From Branchiostoma lanceolatum (taxonomy: Eukaryota > Chordata > Leptocardii > Amphioxiformes > Branchiostomatidae), in NCBI RefSeq assembly GCF_035083965.1, contig NC_089723.1, positions 29,763,193 to 29,827,192 of the forward strand: a DNA stretch of 64,000 bases. The letters run 5' to 3'. A program made the translations under genes and the position numbers. This document shows, piece by piece, positions 25,766 to 59,100 of the stretch (positions are counted from its first letter, which is position 1; each line of letters opens with the position of its first letter). The notes under the pieces were generated by a model. The model did no database searches and was not told the origin of the DNA. It saw only the letters and a program-made list of their open reading frames with translations.

Positions 25766-25921
25766 CTTTTCACAGATCCCATTGTATCCTGGGAGGTGCA
25801 GGGCACTATGGGTAGTATGGTAAATGCAAACTGTGTCCAGTCTGGTCATGTTAATGGTTTGCCCCCTGCGTTACCCATAATGCCCTGCATCTCCCAGCAT
25901 GCAATGAGATCCACGAAAAGG
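25766..25921. mobile_element. Palindromic MITE, family 1 copy B
   Basis: CTTTTCACAGATCCCATTG at the left and CAATGAGATCCACGAAAAG at the right; CACTATGGGTA and TACCCATAATG pair inside. It lies 412 bp after the ABHD17 stop, so it is probably transcribed in the 3' UTR. Confidence 0.75.
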
Positions 25922-40062: not shown

Positions 40063-40796
40063 GTATCAGTGAACGGATCCCACTCAGGTCTTTCCGATCG
40101 CCAAGAGCGATTTTCCTCCGTTCTGGAGCTGTCCGCGCTTCTGATGACGTCATGGTTCGACAGGTGAAACCTTTCCTCGCTCGCTCACCGACGCACGAGG
40201 GACGGGCGGGCGGAGAATAGGCTCTCGATCGAAGGGTCTGGGTGGGCCCTGTCACCTAAGCGCAAACGCTCGGTCCTCTTTGTGTCCTACCTTCCGCAAA
40301 GTCGAAAATACTCCGGCGGTATAGAATGCCAATGGCGGGAGAGTATTTTCTCCGTTTCTCTCACGTAATATAGAAGCGGAAGGATTCGTGTGAACTAACA
40401 TAGAAGAGAAAATGCTATAATTCCATGCTAATAAATGATGGGAATTTTATTCTCGTTTCTATTTTGTTATTTGTAGTTGACCGTACGAAACTTACCTTAC
40501 ATTTTCCTATTTCTATTATCATATTCTATTATCGATAATATTTTGTGGTTTTGAATTTAGGATAGATTAGCCTCGCGGTATTGCTCTTAAATACTAGTAC
40601 TAAGTAGTTGTTGCCGCACCTTCTACCATGTGCGATTGTTTAGCGATAAAGGTCATTCATTCATTATCGTTCTTGTACTTTATTCCTCCCTTGGGAGAGC
40701 ATTGAAGTGGACATATTTACAAAGTCAAAGGGGACGCCATGTCAATTTATATGTGGTGTAGAAAAAATAAAAATGCTTTGGAAAATAAATTATCTT
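40063..40796. other. Intergenic DNA
   Basis: G+C-rich to about 40330, then AT-rich. I see no exon or clear element. Confidence 0.5.
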
Positions 40797-40995
40797 TCAT
40801 TAATTCATTTATCCATTAATCCATTAATTCCTTAATTCATTAATTCACCAATTCATCAATTCATCAATACGTCAATTCGTCTATTCGTCTTTTCGTCGAT
40901 TCGTCGATTCGTCGATTCGTCGATTCATCGATTCATCAATTCATCAATTCATTAATTCATTAATTCTTTAATTCATTAATTCATTAATTCGTTTA
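40797..40995. repeat. 8-bp tandem repeat with nested sequence zones (about 200 bp)
   Basis: Units of ATTCNTNA form: outer zones are ATTCATTA, inner flanks ATTCATCA, and the core ATTCGTCG (about 40894-40925). Confidence 0.8.
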
Positions 40996-41537
40996 TTACT
41001 TCATCAGCATAGAAAGCCACAAATCCAGGTCCACATCATTTGGTCCATTCTAACGTTTTAATCGTGATAGGTCTACATATTTATCAATTCAAATATATAG
41101 AATCCTAATACATAGTATAGACAAACATTTAAGGTTAACATTCCGTTGCTTTTACAATTGCTACATCTTGGCCATGTACACTACAAAGACTGCATACATA
41201 GGGACATATACAGTGATGCCGTTATACGCTTATACTGTATAATAAGCGGCACTTCTAAATAACATGTGCAACATGAGACAAAATATGCTCGAAATTGACA
41301 GCTAAAGGATGTAAACGTCCGATGCAGAACAATGAAGAGATAATAATGTTTTTGTATTGGTTAAGATGTCAAATGATGATAGATATTATAGGTTACCAAC
41401 AATGTACATTCTGTATTGTAAAAGCGGATTAAGGTCTCCATAGCTCCGAAGCTCTTCTAACAGGTAACTGTGTTACTTAAAATGTTATGGTTTATTCCCA
41501 AGCAGATTCTATGGTACTGCAGCGTTTATTGCAGTAC

Positions 41538-41721
41538 TTATGCCGTGCTGACGCCTTCTCACCTGATGATTGAATTATATGACGTCAGTGTTTCAAATTT
41601 TTCACCTGATGATTGAATTTTAAAATACTGACGTCATATAATACAATCGTCAGGTGAAAAATTTGAAACACCGACGTCATATAATTCAATTCTCAGGTGA
41701 GAAGGCTTCAGCACGACATAA
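41538..41721. mobile_element. 184-bp palindromic MITE with TGACGTCA motifs
   Basis: Left end TTATGCCGTGCTGACGCCTT and right end AAGGCTTCAGCACGACATAA are inverted. CACCTGATGATTGAATT modules alternate in orientation four times. TGACGTCA-type sites occur at about 41579, 41629 and 41673. It lies 130 bp before the orphan sulfotransferase exon. Confidence 0.8.
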
Positions 41722-41852
41722 GTTGCAAACTGTGGAAAATCCCAGAACTATGACGGACTTATGTGAAACAACTTGAAGTAAGACTTTGACTTTGGAATAT
41801 ATCAAGCATAGCATAGAAGGATTTTCAATTTTTTGTGTAGCTTTCCTTTAAG

Positions 41853-41962
41853 GTATCGCTGGAGATTGGAAGAACCACTACTCGGCCGAGCAGAGTGCCA
41901 GGTTGGACCGGAAGTATCGTGAGGGGATGGCAGGATCGGGGCTGGAGTTTGAATTTGAGTAA
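41853..41962 (+). pseudogene. Orphan terminal exon of a sulfotransferase
   Basis: A 110-nt exon after a T-rich acceptor (ctttaag) encodes GIAGDWKNHYSAEQ and the SULT C-terminus ending GSGLEFEFE, stop TAA. It is nearly the same as the last exons of the two full genes at 48274 and 54493. It has Arg-to-Gly (REGM for RERM) and Gln-to-Arg changes. No other SULT exon can be found in the 2.7 kb before it, where repeats lie. The 3' flank, with AATAAA at 42628, matches the flank of SULT-A. Read as the remnant of an upstream copy; a distant 5' part is less likely. Confidence 0.75.
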
Positions 41963-44243: not shown

Positions 44244-47200
44244 ATGACATCATCTGAAGATAGACCACCATTTGAGCCCCCCTACACGGATCACGAGTAT
44301 GAAGGCATTCCGATGATAGGTATGGTTCCTAAGGAGAGCCTCGATGCGATGAAGACTTTCGAGATGCGCGACGGAGATGTGGTCGTATTAAGCTATCCCA
44401 AAAGCGGTAGGTGTAACTTAGAGTTTGAGCTAATTGTAAGAATCTCATATTTAGTGACGCTCACATTTAAACACCATATTGTATTTTGTACATTGCCAAC
44501 ATTCTTCCCTTCGAAATGATAAACCTTGCTACTTTCCACGAACGAGCAATAAACGTATCAACAAGTGTGAGGGGATCTTTAACGCGCTTGTGGCTGTCAA
44601 AAACAAACACCGCACAGACGGCTTAACGTTCACTCAAAAAGGTAACGTGCAGATCGGAGATACTAGCCCTAATTATATTTTCCTCCCTGTTCCCTGTATA
44701 GGGTATAGGGGAAATATGTTGTTGTTTGCTGGCGTTCTTCTTCCTTCTTCTATCCAAACAAGAAGTTGATGTAGGGTGGCAGCTCTATTAATGCAGAAAC
44801 TTTCCCGTACGGTAAAAGCTACGGAGGTCATGTTGGAGGTGTGAGTAGCTCTAGGAAAGGTGAATACAACGGAATGTGTGTTATGCTAATGAGAACCTCA
44901 TTTGTATAATTAATGCAGAAACGTCCGGGAAACGAGACCTTGAAAGGATTAGATTTTGGGACCCTTAGCGGCTTGTCACTGCAGCTGAACTTTCGGGTTT
45001 TGTATCTTTTGATTTGATCACCCAATAGAAGTGGTAGCTATCTCTTGTGCTCAGAAGGAAGCGACATAGGGTTGGAGCCCCTAGCAGCCTGTTCTAGAAC
45101 TGCGCTTTGGTTAAAATCTTCCAGAGAATAAATGAAAAAGGAAGAAGGGATTTCCGTCATATTGGGCATGCAGGTAGCTTAGATAGAGATGTAGACAATT
45201 GAAATAAACTTATGCAAATGAGGACTTAATTTGCATAACTCATGAGGAACCTCTATAGCTCCAGTGTTTTCAATATCAGGACTTTTTGATACATGTCACC
45301 CATGTAATTTATAGCAGGTGGAACATTAACAGATACCAAACAAAAAATAGGGAAACATTTTTGCACAATTAATACAAAAATGCCATAGGTCCTTCAATTT
45401 TCAATACTTGCAACATGTGTAAGTAAGGTAAATGTAAACATCACTATGTATAGATTATGTAATTTTTGCATAAACCTTTACAAAATCTCTAGATAGTTCA
45501 GGGTATGACTTCACAGAACTCAGTTACAATTTCCAGATGTACATCATGCATGCTGGATGCATTAAAATTTCAGGAAATTCTATGCCAACTCATGTCATTC
45601 ATACTGAATGCTATGAGTTGATATGGGCGTTGTTATCTTAAAACGGTTTGTGAGATTTATGTGCATATCCTGATTTAAAGATGGGGAGGTGTTACCGTAC
45701 GTCCCTCTCGGAAACGCAAGGCAAGACAAGATTTCAAGAGTATTCTACTTAAACTTTTACCACTCTACGTTGTTGTCAAAAACGTAATTAACTACTTATT
45801 ATACTCGCAGGTACAAACTGGATGCATCAGATCGTGCATGAAATTCTGGGTGGAAAGCCTGAAACAGCGTTACCGAAGACACTTGAGTTTTTCCATCTAC
45901 ATTTTGGACAGGTACAGCCAGTCTACGCCCAGCTACAACAGGCTCCATCTCCCCGGCTGATATGGACCCATCTTCCATTTCAACTGGCACCTCCAGGCCT
46001 GTCAACTCCAATCAACAAGGTTTAGTAGCGTATTTGCATCTTAATGAAATTACGATGATGATATCTATATAAGCTGTTTTCCAACACAATAAAGAAAAAA
46101 ACAATTTTTTAAGCATTTTGCAAGACCTCCTTGCTCGTGGCTTGCTATGGTACTGCAGCGGAACTATTGGTTCGATATCTCGTGTTCTGGACGTGCTACT
46201 AGTATTGTCATGGTTTTTGAGTGGTAGATTTTTTGAGTGGTAGATAGCTCTTAAGGGGCGGGGGGAGAGTAAGTTGTGTAGGTTTGCCCCCCCCCCCCCT
46301 AGCGGAACTGTAGGAGCCGATTTCGTTTTAAACTTTGAATGGGAATAGCTCATGAAGGGGTAGATGGATCGTCATTATATTTGGTCTGTAGATAGCTTGA
46401 GTGATGATTGACAAGATTGTATGCTTATTATGCAAATCAGAAGCTAATTTGCATAGCTAATGAGGAAAGGTTATAAATCCGCTGTATTCCATTATAGGAC
46501 GCATAAACATGTGACATGTGTAACTGAGAAAGAGAGGGACATCACTATATATCAATTATGTAAAAATAAAAACAAAAACAAACTATAACTCAAAAATAGT
46601 AATTGATGGGGATTTCAGTCTTGCAGCATTTGGAAGTTAAGTAGATGTAGACATAATCAGACCTGCATTATGCGAATGAGGGCCTCATCTACATAATTTA
46701 TGAGGAAATACTTCAACAACCTTCTTTGCTAAGATAAGATTTTCATAGTTTGAACACTTTGTGTTATTTGGGTAGAAAAGATGATCGACTGACATAATTC
46801 ATGCAAATGAGGTCATCATTTGCATATAGGCTTACATCACTCGGCGAAGGTATGGGGTCGTGGAACTTTAGTTGTATATGTGAAAGTATGCAATGTAATT
46901 AAAACATAGCATTTACGTTGAAGATGGTTTCTATCATCCTTTGTAGGTGAAAGTCATCGTCATGTTGCGAAACCCCAAGGATGTTTCTGTGTCGAACTAC
47001 TATTACCGACAGAGGTTTCAACTAGTAAACTCACCTCAAACTTGGGAGCAACACGCAAAAGACTTCCTAGATGGAAAATGTGAGTTTGAATTAGAATTAG
47101 TGAAGTTTAAACTGTGCATTGCTGCACACTTTTATAGAGGACAATTTGCATAGTTTTTTGTACTGTCCAAGAGGATGACATTTAAAGTTGTAAGTTACTG

Positions 47201-48383
47201 TTTTATACAACAGCAAAACATGCATGTGTTGTGATGTAATTACAATGCCTTGACCGACACTACCTACCTAGAGTTTTTGAAGGGTATATAGAAAATATTT
47301 TTATCATCATTAATATTGTTGGCACCAGATGACTACTTTTGAAGGCGAAAAATGTTCAAAACATGCATTGTACTTTTTTCACATGTATGGGTCTAACTTT
47401 AGTACGAGCCTGCTGTTGATAACAAATACTAAATCCTAGAAAAGCTGGCTTCACCATAGAGTTAGCTATAGAACAGATTCTTGTAGCCCTAGATGGAAAA
47501 CAGCTTGTAAATTTATTCATGTGCTACAGGTTATAATGGTGACTACTTCGACCACTTGCTGGGCTGGTGGCAAAGGAAGGATGACCCACATTTCCTCTTT
47601 GTCAAGTACGAAGACTTGAAAAAGGTGAGGCGTACATATTTAAAAGACAATTGTTCTTCTGATTTGTTTGTTGTTTTATGGTGTTCTTGAGCGAGAGCCA
47701 TGAGTGAGGCCTCTCGATTTGGCTAGATCACAAAATAAACTTAAGAGAAGAAAATTGCAAATTTGTCAGCATCCTTTCAGCTCGTCAGGGCAATGTATGG
47801 CAAATAACACAAGATAAATGCATCAAACCAGCCAAACGTCCATAAATAAAACAGAAGTACATAAAATAATGTAATTGATGTAAATTCACAATACTGATGG
47901 TTGAAAAAAAAACTTGTATTCAGGATTTCCCCTCATCAGTGAAGACCATATCAGCCTTCCTGGAGAAAGAGCTGACCGATGAAGACCTGGCCCGCGTGCT
48001 GACCAACTGCAGCTTCGAGTCCATGAGGAAGGATTTCGAAGAGCAGGAAGGCAGGAAGGAAATCATCAGGAAAGGTAGGGATTTTCCTCATTGCATCGGG
48101 GGTCAATCCGAAGTGTAATTTAGAACAATTATTGTAGAACAATAAAGTACAACTAAATGCAATGACAGACGTGACTACAAACTGACATTTACCGTCACGT
48201 ATATAAATACAACAACATAGAGGTTAATACTCAATTTTATGACAGAACAAAATTCCACTTTCTGTTATCTTAGGCATCGTTGGAGATTGGAAGAACCACT
48301 ACTCGGCCGAGCAGAGTGCCAAGTTGGACCAGAAGTATCGTGAGCGGATGGCAGGATCGGGGCTGGAGTTTGAATTTGAATAA
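44244..48383 (+). CDS. SULT: Cytosolic sulfotransferase SULT-A, complete
   Basis: Transfers sulfate from PAPS to small phenols, steroids or amines in the cytosol; the substrate is unknown. Exons 44244-44406, 45811-46019, 46947-47079, 47530-47624, 47924-48074 and 48274-48383 give 861 nt, 286 residues, normal for SULT1-type enzymes. The 5'-phosphosulfate loop is SYPKSGTNW (Lys53). The catalytic His108 is in WTHLPFQL. The 3'-phosphate site is LRNPKDVSVSNYYY (Arg132, Ser140). WWQRKDDPHFLFVKYEDLKK and the end motif RKGIVGDWKNHYS (249-261) complete the PAPS pocket. The usual Tyr after VS is Asn. The ATG sits one base after a plausible acceptor (ttcag), so a non-coding first exon is likely. AATAAA at 49150 may end the message. 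Nothing suggests decay. Confidence 0.93.
44560..46830. repeat. Repeats in SULT-A introns, including octamer-bearing motif
   Basis: A loose inverted motif of the form TTATGCAAATGAG..ATTTGCATA..ATGAGGAA occurs near 44880, 45213, 46435, 46670 and 46798. A SINE-like piece with GATCTTTAACGCGC and AACGTGCAGATC is at 44565-44665, and a G/C homopolymer tract is at 46257-46300. Borders uncertain. Confidence 0.45.
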
Positions 48384-51429: not shown

Positions 51430-54400
51430 ATGGCATCGTCTGAAGATAGACCACCAAATCAGCCTCCCGCGACCAAGTACAAGTATGAGTATGAGTATGA
51501 GGGAATTCCGATGACTTTCCTAGCTCCTAAGGAGAGCCTGGATGCGATGAAGACTTTCGAGATGCGCGACGGAGATGTGGTCGTATTAAGCTATCCCAAA
51601 AGCGGTAGGTGTACTTCAGAGTTTGAGCTAATTGTATAAATCTAATATCTGATGACGCTGACATTTTAACATCATACCTTATTTTGCAAAAAATCGTTTT
51701 CTTTCAAAAACAGGTTGACCACAATGCAAGTGAAGTTGTCAGAAACATCATTAACATCTGGTTTTCCTCCCAGGCACAAGTTGGACGTATCAGATCGTGC
51801 ATGAAATTCTGGATGGAAAGCCTGAAACAAAATTTGCGAAGGTATTGGAGACAGTGCCAGACATGGGATATGAGACACAGCCAGTCTACGCCCAGCTACA
51901 ACAGGCTCCATCTCCTCGGCTGATATGGACCCATCTTCCATTTCAGCTGGCACCTCCAGGCCTGTCAACTCCAATCAACAAGGTTTAGTAGCGTATTTGC
52001 ATCTTAATGAAATTACGATGATGATATTTGAGTTGTCATCCAGCACGATGAATAAAATCACCGAAATGTTTTACAAGATCTTCGATAATAATGAGCTGGG
52101 TTCAAAACATAGAGTCATCAGGGCACCGTCCAACCATTACTCAGTCAACAGAGACAGGGGGCGGTATAGACTTCCTGGCACCTTTGACCAACTGCTGACG
52201 TAACGTGTTCTTAAGGTCACGTGTCCCAAGCGAATCGTTATTTGAATCTGAAGAAGGGTTTAATCTTGTCGGGTGGAAGACAGCTCAGATATGAACACAG
52301 AGAAACTTTCATGCCGAGACAAAAAAAGGACAATGGACATGATCAAGGATATCATCAGCTACATGGAAGTATGAAATATCATTTTGATATGGCATTTACG
52401 TTAAAGATTGCATATTTCTACGGATGAATGTCAATGTACCGGGGCAAACATATCATTTACGTTGAATCTGGGTTTTTTCCTTTGTAGGTGAAAGTCATCG
52501 TCATTTTGCGAAACCCCAAGGATGTCTCTGTGTCGTACTACTATTTCCGACAAAATTTCCAGTTTACTACGTCTCCTGAATCTTGGGAGCAACACGCAAA
52601 AGACTTCCTGGATGGAACACGTGAGTTTGCATTAGTTAAGTGTGGAATGTACATTGCTGTACTCGGCCTTATATATGGAGAATATTGAATTTTGATTTAG
52701 TTTTCAAGGTCCAACAGAACGGCATTTAAAGCTGTAACTTACTGTTTTATGTAACAGCAATAATCTAAGTTACTTCCAAAGATGTAATCATTTTACAATG
52801 CCTGGTTCGACACTTACTTACCTAGATATTTTAAAGGCTAGAAAATATTTCATAATTTTATGCTTTTATTGCTGGCCAAGTGACAAGTTTTGAAGACCAG
52901 AGCTTTTCCGTGTATAGGTCTAGCTAGCGTCAGTATGAACCTGCTGTCGATAAGGCCATGTTGATTTGATTGTATGGATGACATCCGCGCGCGCATCACT
53001 TTTCATCTGTTTCCAAAAATACGAAAAACTGTAAATCGTTAAAGGCTGTCGCAAAATGAGAAAATACATGCTGAGAAAGTATTAGCAAAAGATGCCAAAA
53101 GACGAAGTCATCATAAGTGAAAAAGTTGTGCTAGTTAGAGGCATGCTAGCACATTAAATCGCTACTATATATATATTATAAGGGATTTCTAGATTCTCTT
53201 TCTAGTGATTTAATGAGTTAGAGGCATGCTAGCTAATTGAATCAATAGTAAGGGATTTCAAGTTCCGTAGTAGTTATCTTATGAGTTTGAGATGCGTTGC
53301 CAATTGTTAACACATGTAAATGTGCTTAACACGTGTATTGAATAAAATACTTTTCTCAACAATAGATAACAATAAATGTGCTAAATAGCTAGATCTCTGA
53401 GAATTGCAAAAAACAATATTTCAGAAAACGGAAAATAATGTCGTAGAATGCCGACGTCAAGTCCAAAGTCAAAGAAGAAGTTTTGAACGAACAAAAATGA
53501 AGAATCTATTTTTTGGTCTACCATGCTCAGTGTGTTGACTTTTGTTTATCCTTCTTGACCACAAATATTTTATAATGAAGGCAGCTTTTTTGCCAAACAT
53601 TTTTTATTCGCACACTCGCATCGGTTTTGGATTCAAATTGATCTAGATGGTAAAAGGCTTGCACATTTATTCATCTGCAGCAGGTTTTAAGCGGTTTTAT
53701 GTTGACATCACAGTTGTTTATGGTGACTACTTTGATCACGTGCTGGGCTGGTGGCAAAGGAAAGATGACCCCCATTTCCTCTTTGTCAAGTACGAAGACA
53801 TGAAAAAGGTGAGGTGTGCATATTTGTCTGATTCAGTGCTGTTGTATTTGATGTTCTTTCATAGTGTATGGCAGCATTTTTCCTATTGGACTATCTAAAA
53901 TTGTCTTCACTTTGTTTTCATATCGATTCATAGGTCGTGGTTAAAACCTGCTCATCGACAAATTTGGCTCTGTGTCACTGCCGAAAAGTAGTGGATGCTA
54001 CTTGAAACGGCTGACCGTTTCCAAAATCATATCCAGTTGCTTGAGTAACTGTTTTGTATAACGGATAGATAAATACATCAAACCAGTAAAACGTTCATAA
54101 CTACTTGGAGACAGAGCGAAGAACTGTGAATATAAGGCGTAATTGAAGTTAAAGTTACGGTGCTGATGTTTAAATAAAACTTGTATTCAGGATTTCCCCT
54201 CGTGGGTGAAGACCATAGCAGCCTTTCTGGAGAAAGAGCTGACCGATGAAGATCTGTCCCGTGTGTTTACCAACTGCAGCATGGAATCAATAAGGAAGAC
54301 TTTAGCAGGGACAATCAGGAAGGACGTCGTCAGGAAAGGTAGGATTATCAAATGAATCGAGTCTTCTCCCATTGCATACGTAGTAGATAGGAGGTTTAGG

Positions 54401-54602
54401 TTGATATTCAACATACATAGAAAATATGATTGTTGTCTCATATTCAAATCTATGACAAGACAAATATAATGTTCTACTTTATGTCGTCAAAGGTATCGTT
54501 GGAGATTGGAAGGACCACTACTCGGCCGAGCAGAGTGCCAAGTTGGACCAGAAGTATCGTGAGCGGATGGCAGGATCTGGGCTGGAGTTTGAATTTGAGT
54601 AA
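51430..54602 (+). CDS. SULT: Cytosolic sulfotransferase SULT-B, complete
   Basis: Tandem paralogue of SULT-A with the same exon plan: 51430-51604, 51774-51982, 52488-52620, 53714-53808, 54191-54338 and 54493-54602, 870 nt, 289 residues. PAPS loop SYPKSGTSW (Asn of the usual TNW is Ser), His112 in WTHLPFQL, Arg136 and Ser144 in LRNPKDVSVSYYYF, and RKGIVGDWKDHYS near the end. The N-terminus has a KYKYEYEYE run from a hexanucleotide expansion. Exon 4 was started at 53714 because this gives the same exon length as SULT-A; an acceptor 30 nt upstream (53684) would add ten residues in frame. The third base of the stop codon is the first base of an inserted MITE (54602-54833). An intron-3 insertion begins at 52953. 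Confidence 0.92.
52953..53640. mobile_element. Insertion in SULT-B intron 3, AGGCCA family copy 1
   Basis: Begins AGGCCATGTTGATTTG right after a TA, then GTATGGATGACATCC and GCGCGCATCA, matching the 54602-54833 element. CACTCGCATCGGTTTTGG near 53614 matches its far end. The SULT-A intron lacks this block. The middle holds a direct duplication of GTTAGAGGCATGCTAGC (about 53136 and 53218). The right border is approximate. Confidence 0.65.
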
Positions 54603-54833
54603 GGCCACCCTGGCTTAACTATATGGACGACATCCGGGCGCGCATCAATTTTCGTCCGTTTAAAAAGCGTTCGTGACCATATTGTAAATGGTACAAAGAA
54701 TCTTCAAAATGAACAAACATAAACCGTAAGTTGCCAAAATATTGATGTCGTATAATTCTTTTTTCTTTTGTACGCTCGCATCGGTTTTGGGGTGTCCATA
54801 GGATGTCATCCATATAATCAAATCAGTATGGCC
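54602..54833. mobile_element. 232-bp MITE inserted in the SULT-B stop codon
   Basis: Left end AGGCCACCCTGG with TATGGACGACATCC; right end GGATGTCATCCATA with AGTATGGCC. TA borders it on both sides (54600-54601 and 54834-54835), as for Tc1/mariner-type insertions. Immediately after, ACTGACAAA resumes the sequence that follows the stop TA in the orphan exon copy (41962 on). Confidence 0.8.
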
Positions 54834-54835
54834 TA

Positions 54836-55294
54836 ACTGACAAAGCCATCTTGTGATAAGTAGCCTCCTTTGCAGGCCATCTGGGCTTATTTTTTTTGGG
54901 GGGGGGGGGTGATTTTTAACTGTAACTGGCGGCAATACGATTTCCCTCCGCCAGCTAAAGTCCCTGGACCCGATATAAAATTTGAAAATCGCGAATCAGC
55001 GCTGCCCCAAAAAATAAACGCCAAATTGAGGGGAGGGGATTTTGTGACGGAGATATAAATGATGGTTGGTTTCAGCATACACAAGTATCAGTTTGAAGCC
55101 ACTAGTGTCTACCAGACAAACTCGCTGGCTATAGGATAGGGAGAATATTTGCCAGGGAAGTTTGGCCACTGTAGGGTTTCATTAAATTGGCCGTCGCCAT
55201 TTCGCAGAAAATTGACCATCCAACCGGGCCGGGACAACTGCAGTACGTGGGGCCGAATGGACAGTAGTGACGTCCTAACCGATGCCCCGCCGGG
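54836..55294 (+). other. Region after SULT-B
   Basis: Short stretch matching the SULT 3' flank, then unrelated G-rich sequence (G-run 54897-54910). Possible MITE debris, no exon. A candidate AATAAA for SULT-B is at 55900-55905. Confidence 0.45.
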
Positions 55295-55750
55295 CAGTTT
55301 GGGGCTGTTTTTTTTGCACTTTCGTATTTTCGTCAATTTAGTATAACGATATTCTGTGCAAAATATGTTCGCAATCTTTTAACCGTGACATTTATTTACA
55401 TACCTGTAGCATTAGTAATGCCAATACCCACGTTTCTTTGATACACAGTTTGGAGCTGGGTTTTTTGCACTTTCGTATTTTCGTCAATTTGGTATATTGT
55501 TACTCAGTGTGTGCGCAAATATGTTAAGAATCTTTTAACCATGACATTTATCCAAATACCTGTAGCATTAGTGATGCCACTACTAACGTTTCGTTGATAA
55601 GCAGTTCAGAGCTTTTTTTGCAATTTCGTATTTTTGTCAATTTGGTATATTGTTAAGCAGTGCAAAATATGTTTGCAATCGTTTAACCATGACATTTATC
55701 CACATACCTGCAGCATTAGAAATGCCAATACCCACGTTTCTTTGATAACT
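55295..55750. repeat. Three tandem copies of a 151-156-bp unit
   Basis: Units start at 55295, 55446 and 55602 (CAGTTT/C..GAGCT). Each contains TTTCGTATTTT, GTCAATTT, ATCTTTTAACC-type, TGACATTTAT, CATACCTG.AGCATTAG and ACGTTTC.TTGATA. Confidence 0.85.
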
Positions 55751-55959
55751 AGAAGTGTATCAATTAGGACTTGATCTATCCATCATCATCTATATCGTAA
55801 TTAAGTATTTATTAACAGATCACGTATTCTGATTTGTAAAGAAGATATGTAAAGGAGGAATGTTCAATTTTCAACCGCGTCCAAGAACACACTTGGGCAA
55901 ATAAAGAAGACTTGGTTTTCCCATGTAAAACGTCTATTATTCTCTTTCTAATAAATGTA

Positions 55960-56175
55960 ATACGGTAAATGCATTTTAGTTCGCGTGGTTTTTATTTCGC
56001 GCTAAGGGGAAAATGGAGTGTTAGTGGTGGTTTTCAGTTCGCGGCAGCGCTGTAGTCACATGCTGCTACAGTATTGGGCAAAAATGTTCGCGGTGGTTTC
56101 AAGTTCGCGGTGAAACGGTCGGCGTGAAAACCTCGTACATAATGCCACCGCGAACATTTCTGCATTTACAGTATA
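55960..56175. mobile_element. MITE, family 2 (216 bp)
   Basis: Ends ATACGGTAAATGCATTTTAG and GAACATTTCTGCATTTACAGTATA. Inside, GTTCGCGGTGGTTTCAAGTT and CACCGCGAAC. A CpG-rich, relatively young-looking relative of the 15201-15400 element. Confidence 0.7.
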
Positions 56176-59100
56176 TGGACGTCTCTCCCTTGAAAACGGA
56201 GGTATTGTTTTCGGTTCGTTTGTTTCCATGTTTGTGTGTGAAAGTTTTTTCCCGCTGGACCGGGTCCAAAGTGGCAGGATGTGAGACGGAAAATGGTGTA
56301 ACTGGAGACTTGCAGCATGGAAGGCCGGGCGCACAGTTGGTGCCGCAGGCTTGGCTCGGGTCATGCAAAGACAGAATTGGCGAGAAACACACAATAATGA
56401 AGGAGAAATTCACAAAACCTCTTCGCAGTGGTATGAGATCTTAAATTTCTTGTTGGTACGAGAGTTTATCGTAGACCTACATGTATCTATAGGAAACAGC
56501 ACTGTGTGCTTTCTTTAAACTTCGAATATCGATGTAATTGTACCCATATCATTAAATGAGCTAAAGCCATCATTGAAATATCAATTGTTTGATACTATAC
56601 GTGCATATGTATTAACTCGAATATTCATAGATAGTTTTCATAAATATGCACCCCATCTGAGCGCCCCTACATTCTTGTATGATAAGAACATGAGGGCGAC
56701 CTGGCAGCGCCATGGCCACATATAGGAACTGAATGGCATTTGGTATCAAAATTTCAGGGATCAGCAACACAACTTAGCGACATGGCTGAGAACTGCAACA
56801 CACCTTTGATAATGCAATATTATAGCATGATATAGACATTTCTGCTTGCGTTTGTTAGCATACGGAGTATAAGAAGCTACAGGCGGATTGTGATGATATT
56901 TGGTATGTTTAAACAAGATGAGGGTCAAGTTTGGCATTGGGCCCTTTCTCAAGAAGGGTTTTGATAGTATAATATCTTACCTTGTGTATGTCAGTGTCTC
57001 GGGCCTATAATACACTCCTTAACAATGCAAGTAATACAACAAATTTAGAAAAGTGTCTGCATGAGTTGCCATGGCAAAATATTGAATCGGTTGAAGCCCA
57101 TGGGGATGCTTAAAACCATTTGACTAGAGATAATTTATACCCAGAATTTTAAATGACTGCTTAAGCCTGCTTAAGTAAATATAACACAATATCGAAAACG
57201 TATACTAGCCCTTATTGTATTGTATTAGTAATTATAATGTTAAGTCTTATTCTATACTTCCACTTTGTGTTATGTCAACGAATTCTTGTCATACCTTGTA
57301 CCGTCGTCCAATAAAGTTCTTCAGTAATAAAACATCGCGCAAAATTAAAACAGCGTCTAAACTGTATTGAGTACTCAGCAGCACGTATAGCGGCATACAT
57401 GTAACGTTAACATCAAACATAAAAATTGTGTAATTTTTGAAACAGGATATTAAAAGATACTTTTGAAAAAAGCTTGAATGTATTTTCTGTTTTAGGTCTA
57501 AATGAATTTCTTCAATGGTTAGTATCTGCGTGAGAATGGGAAATCTACACGCAGGTCGCTGCGCGAGTCACTTCGTTTCAAAGGTTAGCTGAAGCCTACA
57601 GGCGGTGACACCATGTGATTAAATTCTATTGTACCCTGGGGTATTGGGTACTGTCATTTCACAGTGCGTGCCATGAATAATGAAGAGAGGTCAGTCCTCA
57701 TGGATTGAATACTGTAACCTACTTTTAAGACCTATCCGTTGTTCCTGTGATGGCCTAGTCACCAGGGTGCATTTAGTCTGTTATTTTCTGTTTCTTAGTA
57801 GTCAGCCAGCAGTATAATAGGACAGGTGCATGCAAGGGATTGTCGTAGAAGCAGGCGTATCTTAATCTGTCTTGTTTCTTGTGGCTGCTATGGACACAGT
57901 CTGTTTGTGTAAAGGCAAATGCGAAGGAAAGAAAGAAGCCCATATTTGAATTTTAATCAGTGGATTTGTCTGTATCTAGTTAGGTGCAGTTATGTTGGAG
58001 ATCACCTGTTTAGAGAAAGTGCATTTTAACCTTCTCCCTGCTGCCTAACTCTAGCGGTGTATTAACCAATAGGGAATTGGATACCAAATGGCTGCTTCAG
58101 TGTGCTAAAGGTTAAGTTCATGTAACAGTCAACTATGTACTTGATAAATGTGACATACTTACTAGACTTTATCCTATACCCCTTTAAAACTAAAAGGTTT
58201 TGTTGAGTCAGCAGAATTTTGATGTGCTGTCTTTTATGTTTTTTTTATGATGAATTTCAAAATAACTGAAAAGAACATTCTATGACTTTTGAAACTTGAG
58301 AGTAAGGGAAAATTAATATTGTCAAAATTATGTATTCAAGACTTTTGCTAAATATGTATTCAAGAAATAATACAGTGCATTTGGAAGTGAAGCTACTTTT
58401 ATTGGATTTTTACCATGCTTACTATGTTTCCATACAAGCCATATCATTTCTTTAAACTTTTACAAAAATAGTATAGAGAAGATGTTTCACTTAGATTGAG
58501 GTATATTGAAGTAGTTTTGAAGAGACGTATGCTACTACTGATCTCAGGACGGATGAAAATTGTAGACAGATAATTTTTGTTACCTTTCCTAACAATATGC
58601 AATGTATATATAATAAAGAGATTTGGGTAAAATTCTGGTTGTCTAGACTGGGTTGGACTTTGTGTAAATCTCAAAATTTTCATTGATGATACTAAAATCC
58701 ATACTTTATGAAGGACCATTCACTTAAGTTTCATAGATAGGTTTCTGTAATGAATTGATGCAGTACAGTGTACGAAAAAACTATATTCTGCGTTTTTCTG
58801 TGTAATATCAATTTTTTTGTCAAAAAAGTCTCCTAGTAGTCTAGACAGCCTATGTTTTGAAATATATACTTAAATGTGGATCCAATCAACAAGCTGATAT
58901 ACAGTACATAAAAATGCACAAGAGGCAAAGATCTATCAAATATCATTCATCTTTTCCTTTTCAGTCAATGTCTGATCAGACACAATACATATATACATTG
59001 TAAATATATTTTAAATTTGAATATTCCCATTCCATTGTACACTATTCACCATTTTCCACTTCTATAGGAAAAACAAACGAACAGAAGCTATCTAAACTCT

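Follow-up and report, generated by a model that had tools for sequence, protein, structure and literature searches.

The SULT-B locus and its paralogs

The window, by which we mean the whole 64-kb stretch of DNA analysed, contains two full sulfotransferase genes, designated SULT-A and SULT-B, and an orphan copy of their terminal exon (Table 1). SULT-B is composed of six exons which join into 870 nt without internal stop and encode 289 aa matching the Sulfotransfer_1 domain with an E value of 4.7e-63. The corresponding figures for SULT-A are 286 aa and 3.4e-63. Exon borders were placed manually, guided by the GT/AG sites and by the similarity between SULT-A and SULT-B. Exon 4 offers two in-frame acceptors 30 nt apart; the downstream one was used, and the numbers of TAA/TTA and TA sites given below apply to this model. 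A pseudogene status of SULT-B was considered and ruled out on sequence grounds, the 289-aa frame being open and the Sulfotransfer_1 match being retained.

The terminal exon of SULT-B is 94.7% identical to the orphan copy (41850-41962) and 96.4% identical to that of SULT-A (48272-48383). The dS values between the three terminal exons range from 0.05 to 0.11, which represents only 1 to 2 changes per pair, and dS reaches 0.31 over the remaining parts of SULT-A and SULT-B. The last exon may therefore have undergone conversion between copies, although these numbers are very small. A 151-bp stretch spanning an exon-intron border is 99% identical between SULT-A (45914-46064) and SULT-B (51877-52027), with much less similarity on both of its flanks, and looks like the product of gene conversion.

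Upstream of the orphan exon, no SULT-A exon was detected between 36000 and 41850 at an E value of 0.01, and the sole match at this threshold in the search of 41000-41850 was one of 16 bases to an intron. The 3' flank of the orphan exon nevertheless shares about 67% identity with that of SULT-A across more than 600 bases. A large palindrome (41536-41723, arms of 87 nt, 91%) is located just upstream of the orphan exon. Elsewhere in the window, two copies of another inverted-repeat element with ends in common are found at 829-988 and 25766-25920, and 40772-41049 consists of tandem repeats whose 8-bp unit is of the TTCATTAA / TTCGTCGA type.

Table 1. Features at the SULT-B stop codon and at the related sites of the window
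Feature	Position	Strand	Basis
MITE-like non-coding inverted-repeat element, PIF/Harbinger-type anatomy	54603..54833	+	TIRs 26/33; missing from 2/2 paralogous terminal exons
Left terminal inverted repeat (TIR)	54603..54635	+	Inverted match 26/33
Right terminal inverted repeat	54801..54833	-	Inverted match 26/33
TAA target duplication, left copy = stop codon	54600..54602	+	Direct reading; single TAA at empty sites 48381, 41960
TAA target duplication, right copy	54834..54836	+	Direct reading and empty-site alignment
SULT-B terminal coding exon, ends in TAA stop 54600-54602	54493..54602	+	Spliced 870-nt frame; Pfam Sulfotransfer_1 E 4.7e-63
SULT-A terminal exon, stop site empty	48274..48383	+	Alignment and spliced frame
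Orphan terminal exon, stop site empty	41853..41962	+	Alignment
Remnant of old 3' flank, resembles other two copies, similarity fading inside	54837..54862	+	Empty-site alignment
Second, longer family copy in SULT-B intron; complete left end preceded by TAA, right TIR missing	52954..53630 (right limit approximate)	+	
Empty site TAA in SULT-A intron, counterpart of second copy	47420..47422	+	Intron alignment ends GATAA

An inserted element at the stop codon of SULT-B

SULT-B ends in GAG-TAA (54597-54602), immediately followed by an inverted-repeat element and then, from 54834, by TAACTGACAAA. The presence of such an element at the stop, as described in the earlier note on this DNA, agrees with the sequence. 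The alignment of the three terminal exons together with their 3' flanks, which the same note had proposed as a check, reveals an empty site in both paralogs: the element is absent and a single TAA is present in 2/2 of the other terminal exons within the window, which read GAGTAACTGACAAA in the orphan copy and GAATAACAGACAAA in SULT-A. For this comparison the two flanks of SULT-B were joined; when they were entered individually, the MAFFT alignment gave no information beyond the stop. Upon removal of the element and of one TAA, SULT-B reads GAGTAACTGACAAAGCCATCTTG, to be compared with GAATAACAGACAAAACCATCTCG and GAGTAACTGACAAACCTATCTCG, and aligns with both across the stop and for some 20-25 bases further. 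The claim of a MITE-like insertion at the stop that leaves the protein length unchanged is thus borne out by the two empty sites and by the 289-aa frame without internal stop.

No match to the 3' flank of either paralog was obtained for SULT-B 54834-58500 at an E value of 0.01, and the short remnant at 54837-54862 likewise falls below this threshold. A further inverted repeat (54884-55022, arms of 18 nt, 83%), accompanied by a long G run, lies near the point where the flank similarity of SULT-B stops and is possibly a second insertion in its 3' UTR.

The element starts with GGCCACCCTGG right after the stop and, 231 bases on, ends with CAGTATGGCC, followed by TAACTGACAAAG from 54834. It is thus a symmetrical GGCC...GGCC sequence of 231 bp with a TAA on either side. 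Its first and last 33 bases form an ungapped inverted match of 26/33 (79%), in which the longest exact run within the ends is 8 bases, just under the 9-base seed of the local repeat search. At the spacing of the element, only 1 of 63,769 window positions reaches an inverted score of at least 26, this being the element itself, and the runner-up scores 21. When spacings of 80 to 800 are considered, 142 position pairs score at least 26/33 as counted after the complexity filter, many of these being shifted versions of other inverted repeats. A 26/33 repeat is therefore not unique as such in the window, and what sets the present one apart is that it coincides with the boundaries of the insertion.

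The element is short (231 bp) and non-coding: a frame continued past the stop into it remains open for 39 codons. The earlier expectation that the loss of the stop would extend the protein is consequently sound, the read-through amounting to 39 additional codons with the element and to 8 without it. In the gene model used, TAA or TTA occurs 9 times (4 TAA and 5 TTA) and TA 32 times in the coding exons of SULT-B. The last of these exons has just one of the 9 TAA/TTA sites, namely the stop.

A second member of the family in an intron of SULT-B

One family copy besides the element at the stop was found inside the 64-kb window. Over its first 33 bases it agrees with the right TIR of the first copy at 30 positions and with the left TIR at 24, and inner matches between the two copies are located at 52973-53019 and 53600-53630. 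Global alignment of the two copies in direct orientation scores 25.4, whereas shuffled sequences (n=100) average -38.4 and reach -16.8 at most. The reverse-complement alignment likewise exceeds all of its shuffles but is weaker than the direct one, with a score of 2.2 and a shuffle maximum of -19.4 (n=100). The inner parts align mostly by means of gaps. In the second copy, stop-free stretches extend to 54 codons at most.

The left junction of this copy reads TAA-GGCC, and the SULT-A intron can be aligned with that of SULT-B up to and including the TAA of GATAA. A TAA therefore precedes both known insertions and is present at both of their empty sites. About 65 bases of the matching SULT-A intron are absent along with the right TIR of the second copy, as if both had been deleted together. 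The core of the ends (22 letters, 21 of them specified) gave 0 exact matches in viral or prokaryote contigs, collections which contain no animal genomes.

Family assignment

From its anatomy, the element may be placed in the PIF/Harbinger superfamily. According to passages of a survey of the PHIS superfamily (PMC4482050), PIF/Harbinger elements produce TWA duplications, the first base of their TIRs is usually A or G and about 93% of these TIRs are shorter than 60 bp. The present element is short and non-coding, with TIRs of 33 bp that start with GG and match at 26/33. A TWA duplication is observed under the favored boundary, which is not a unique one, and for the second copy on the left side only. 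Taken with its position in a gene, these traits are those of PIF/Harbinger-type (Tourist-like) MITEs. MITEs of that class are expected to share their ends with an autonomous element encoding a DDE/HTH transposase and a Myb/SANT protein, and to form a repeated family in the genome; within the 64-kb window, one further copy was found and no transposase or named family. The ends of the element are matched at 79%.

Known systems offer partial parallels. In the account given of mJing of rice (PMC6850418), an exonic insertion of 246 bp is flanked by a duplication of 3 bp and has ends starting with GGC, and about 67% of the 72 members of its family display TAA/TTA duplications. The resemblance to SULT-B lies in a short Harbinger-type insertion in an exon, with a 3-bp duplication and GGC-starting ends. 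The exonic mJing, however, has a TAC duplication, creates a premature stop and causes a mutant phenotype, whereas in SULT-B the stop itself is the target and the protein is unchanged. The Submariner MITEs of Pandoravirus salinus, in the sections of their description cited here (PMC4495683), are comparable in being MITEs with sites in coding regions (10 of 30 in predicted ones) and with one paralogous empty site shown, but differ by their TA duplications and their assignment to Tc1/mariner. ISL2EU was rejected, since the AT duplication ascribed to it in the surveyed passages (PMC4482050) does not fit the site of the element.

Mechanism and alternative readings

The insertion is real, as established by the element and its ends, the empty sites, the flanking TAAs, the open frame and the second TAA-preceded member, and it is mechanistically ordinary. 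The explanation that we retain, with a probability of roughly 85%, is that a non-autonomous PIF/Harbinger-type MITE inserted at the TAA which is the stop codon of SULT-B, and that this TAA was duplicated, its upstream copy remaining the stop. The process can be summarized as follows. The TAA-targeting MITE, presumably mobilized in trans by a Harbinger-type transposase, would have entered the ochre stop. Staggered cutting followed by repair would then have duplicated the TAA on both sides of the element, so that the upstream TAA would still serve as the stop and the downstream one would head the old 3' flank. Since it is the ochre codon that serves as target, the stop would be regained whatever the sequence or orientation of the element and no property of the element end would be required; neutrality would thus be built in. 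Survival of the insertion would appear to need only a known target preference and selection against disruptive sites. One case cannot demonstrate a preference for stops.

The earlier note had favored another mechanism, in which a TA-targeting element of 232 bp duplicated TA and completed the stop with its own terminal A; such a target would be that of a Tc1/mariner-like element. This reading formally fits the junctions, as TA is found on both sides and 232+2 bases equally account for the net insertion of 234 bp. Three partitions of these 234 bp are possible, namely 231+3 (TAA), 232+2 (TA and a terminal A) and 233+1 (A), and since the 3-bp and 2-bp readings give equal net lengths, a single complete site cannot by itself settle the boundary. 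Only the 231+3 split combines symmetrical ends with a duplication of a recognized kind. With the 232-bp boundary, the two ends are offset from each other by a single base, AGGCC on the left facing GGCC on the right, whereas a Tc1/mariner MITE is expected to have symmetrical ends inside its TA duplication. Moreover, for both insertions (2/2) the empty site has an A after TA, which a TA-only target does not require. The preference for A or G as first base is of no help here, as an end starting with AGGCC satisfies it likewise. The supply of the last base of the stop by the element is consequently the weaker reading, and we consider it improbable.

Two further readings were examined. The inverted match can be extended by one base (A 54602 and T 54834), and the pair 54602/54834 also scores 26/33, which would be compatible with a symmetrical AGGCC...GGCCT element of 233 bp flanked by a 1-bp duplication. 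DNA transposons are not known to generate duplications of 1 bp, and the bases in question are equally explained by duplication of TAA; this reading is given hardly any credit. Membership of NuwaII, another PHIS group, instead of PIF/Harbinger proper would restore the stop in the same way. In the passages of the survey that deal with it, NuwaII is reported from one amphioxus, with GG ends and a C-TNA-G target, and NuwaII-2_BFlo is described (PMC4482050). The GG ends and the TNA-compatible target of our element suit this group, but the two sites are G-TAA-C and A-TAA-C and not C-TAA-G, which makes such an assignment very unlikely.

A 3-bp TAA duplication is therefore most likely, in preference to TA and the element's own A. 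It is favored by the symmetry of the ends, by the second copy with its TAA-GGCC junction at a TAA empty site and by the TWA target described in passages of the published survey (PMC4482050). The evidence is good but not final; the right-hand TAA is seen at the only place open to inspection, the second copy having lost its right end. The earlier mechanism was probably wrong by one base.

Possible consequences for SULT-B and for other genes

The element would be transcribed as part of the 3' UTR of SULT-B. The 244-nt region has a predicted RNA folding energy of -72.5 kcal/mol, compared to -51.4 +/- 4.4 for shuffled sequences (z -4.78; 0 of 200 shuffles as stable), as expected from its inverted ends. 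If transcribed, the new 3' UTR would thus start with a hairpin-forming sequence. The base following the stop is changed from C to G by the insertion. Altered termination or message stability may follow for SULT-B. The contribution of a poly-A signal by the element was considered and rejected, as neither AATAAA nor ATTAAA occurs between 54600 and 54833, the first one being located at 55013.

Narrow word searches of the open-access literature retrieved no account of a stop codon regained through duplication of the target, a result which does not imply absence of precedent. The passages dealing with stop codons in PMC6850418, PMC4495683, PMC6382973, PMC3626606, PMC6593561 and PMC2872659 describe no such case.

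With the mechanism corrected, the stop of SULT-B survived since the duplicated target is TAA, and a lucky terminal base is unnecessary. By extension, and as a speculation that we hold to be rather doubtful, every ochre stop might be a potential safe site for TAA-targeting transposons. Among tolerated exonic insertions, PIF/Harbinger-type elements would then be over-represented at TAA stops, as opposed to TAG or TGA, and would repeatedly supply the starts of 3' UTRs. If this were true, the stop of SULT-B would be one case of a general route, and a testable prediction is thereby provided as to which sites of coding genes tolerate TAA-targeting elements.
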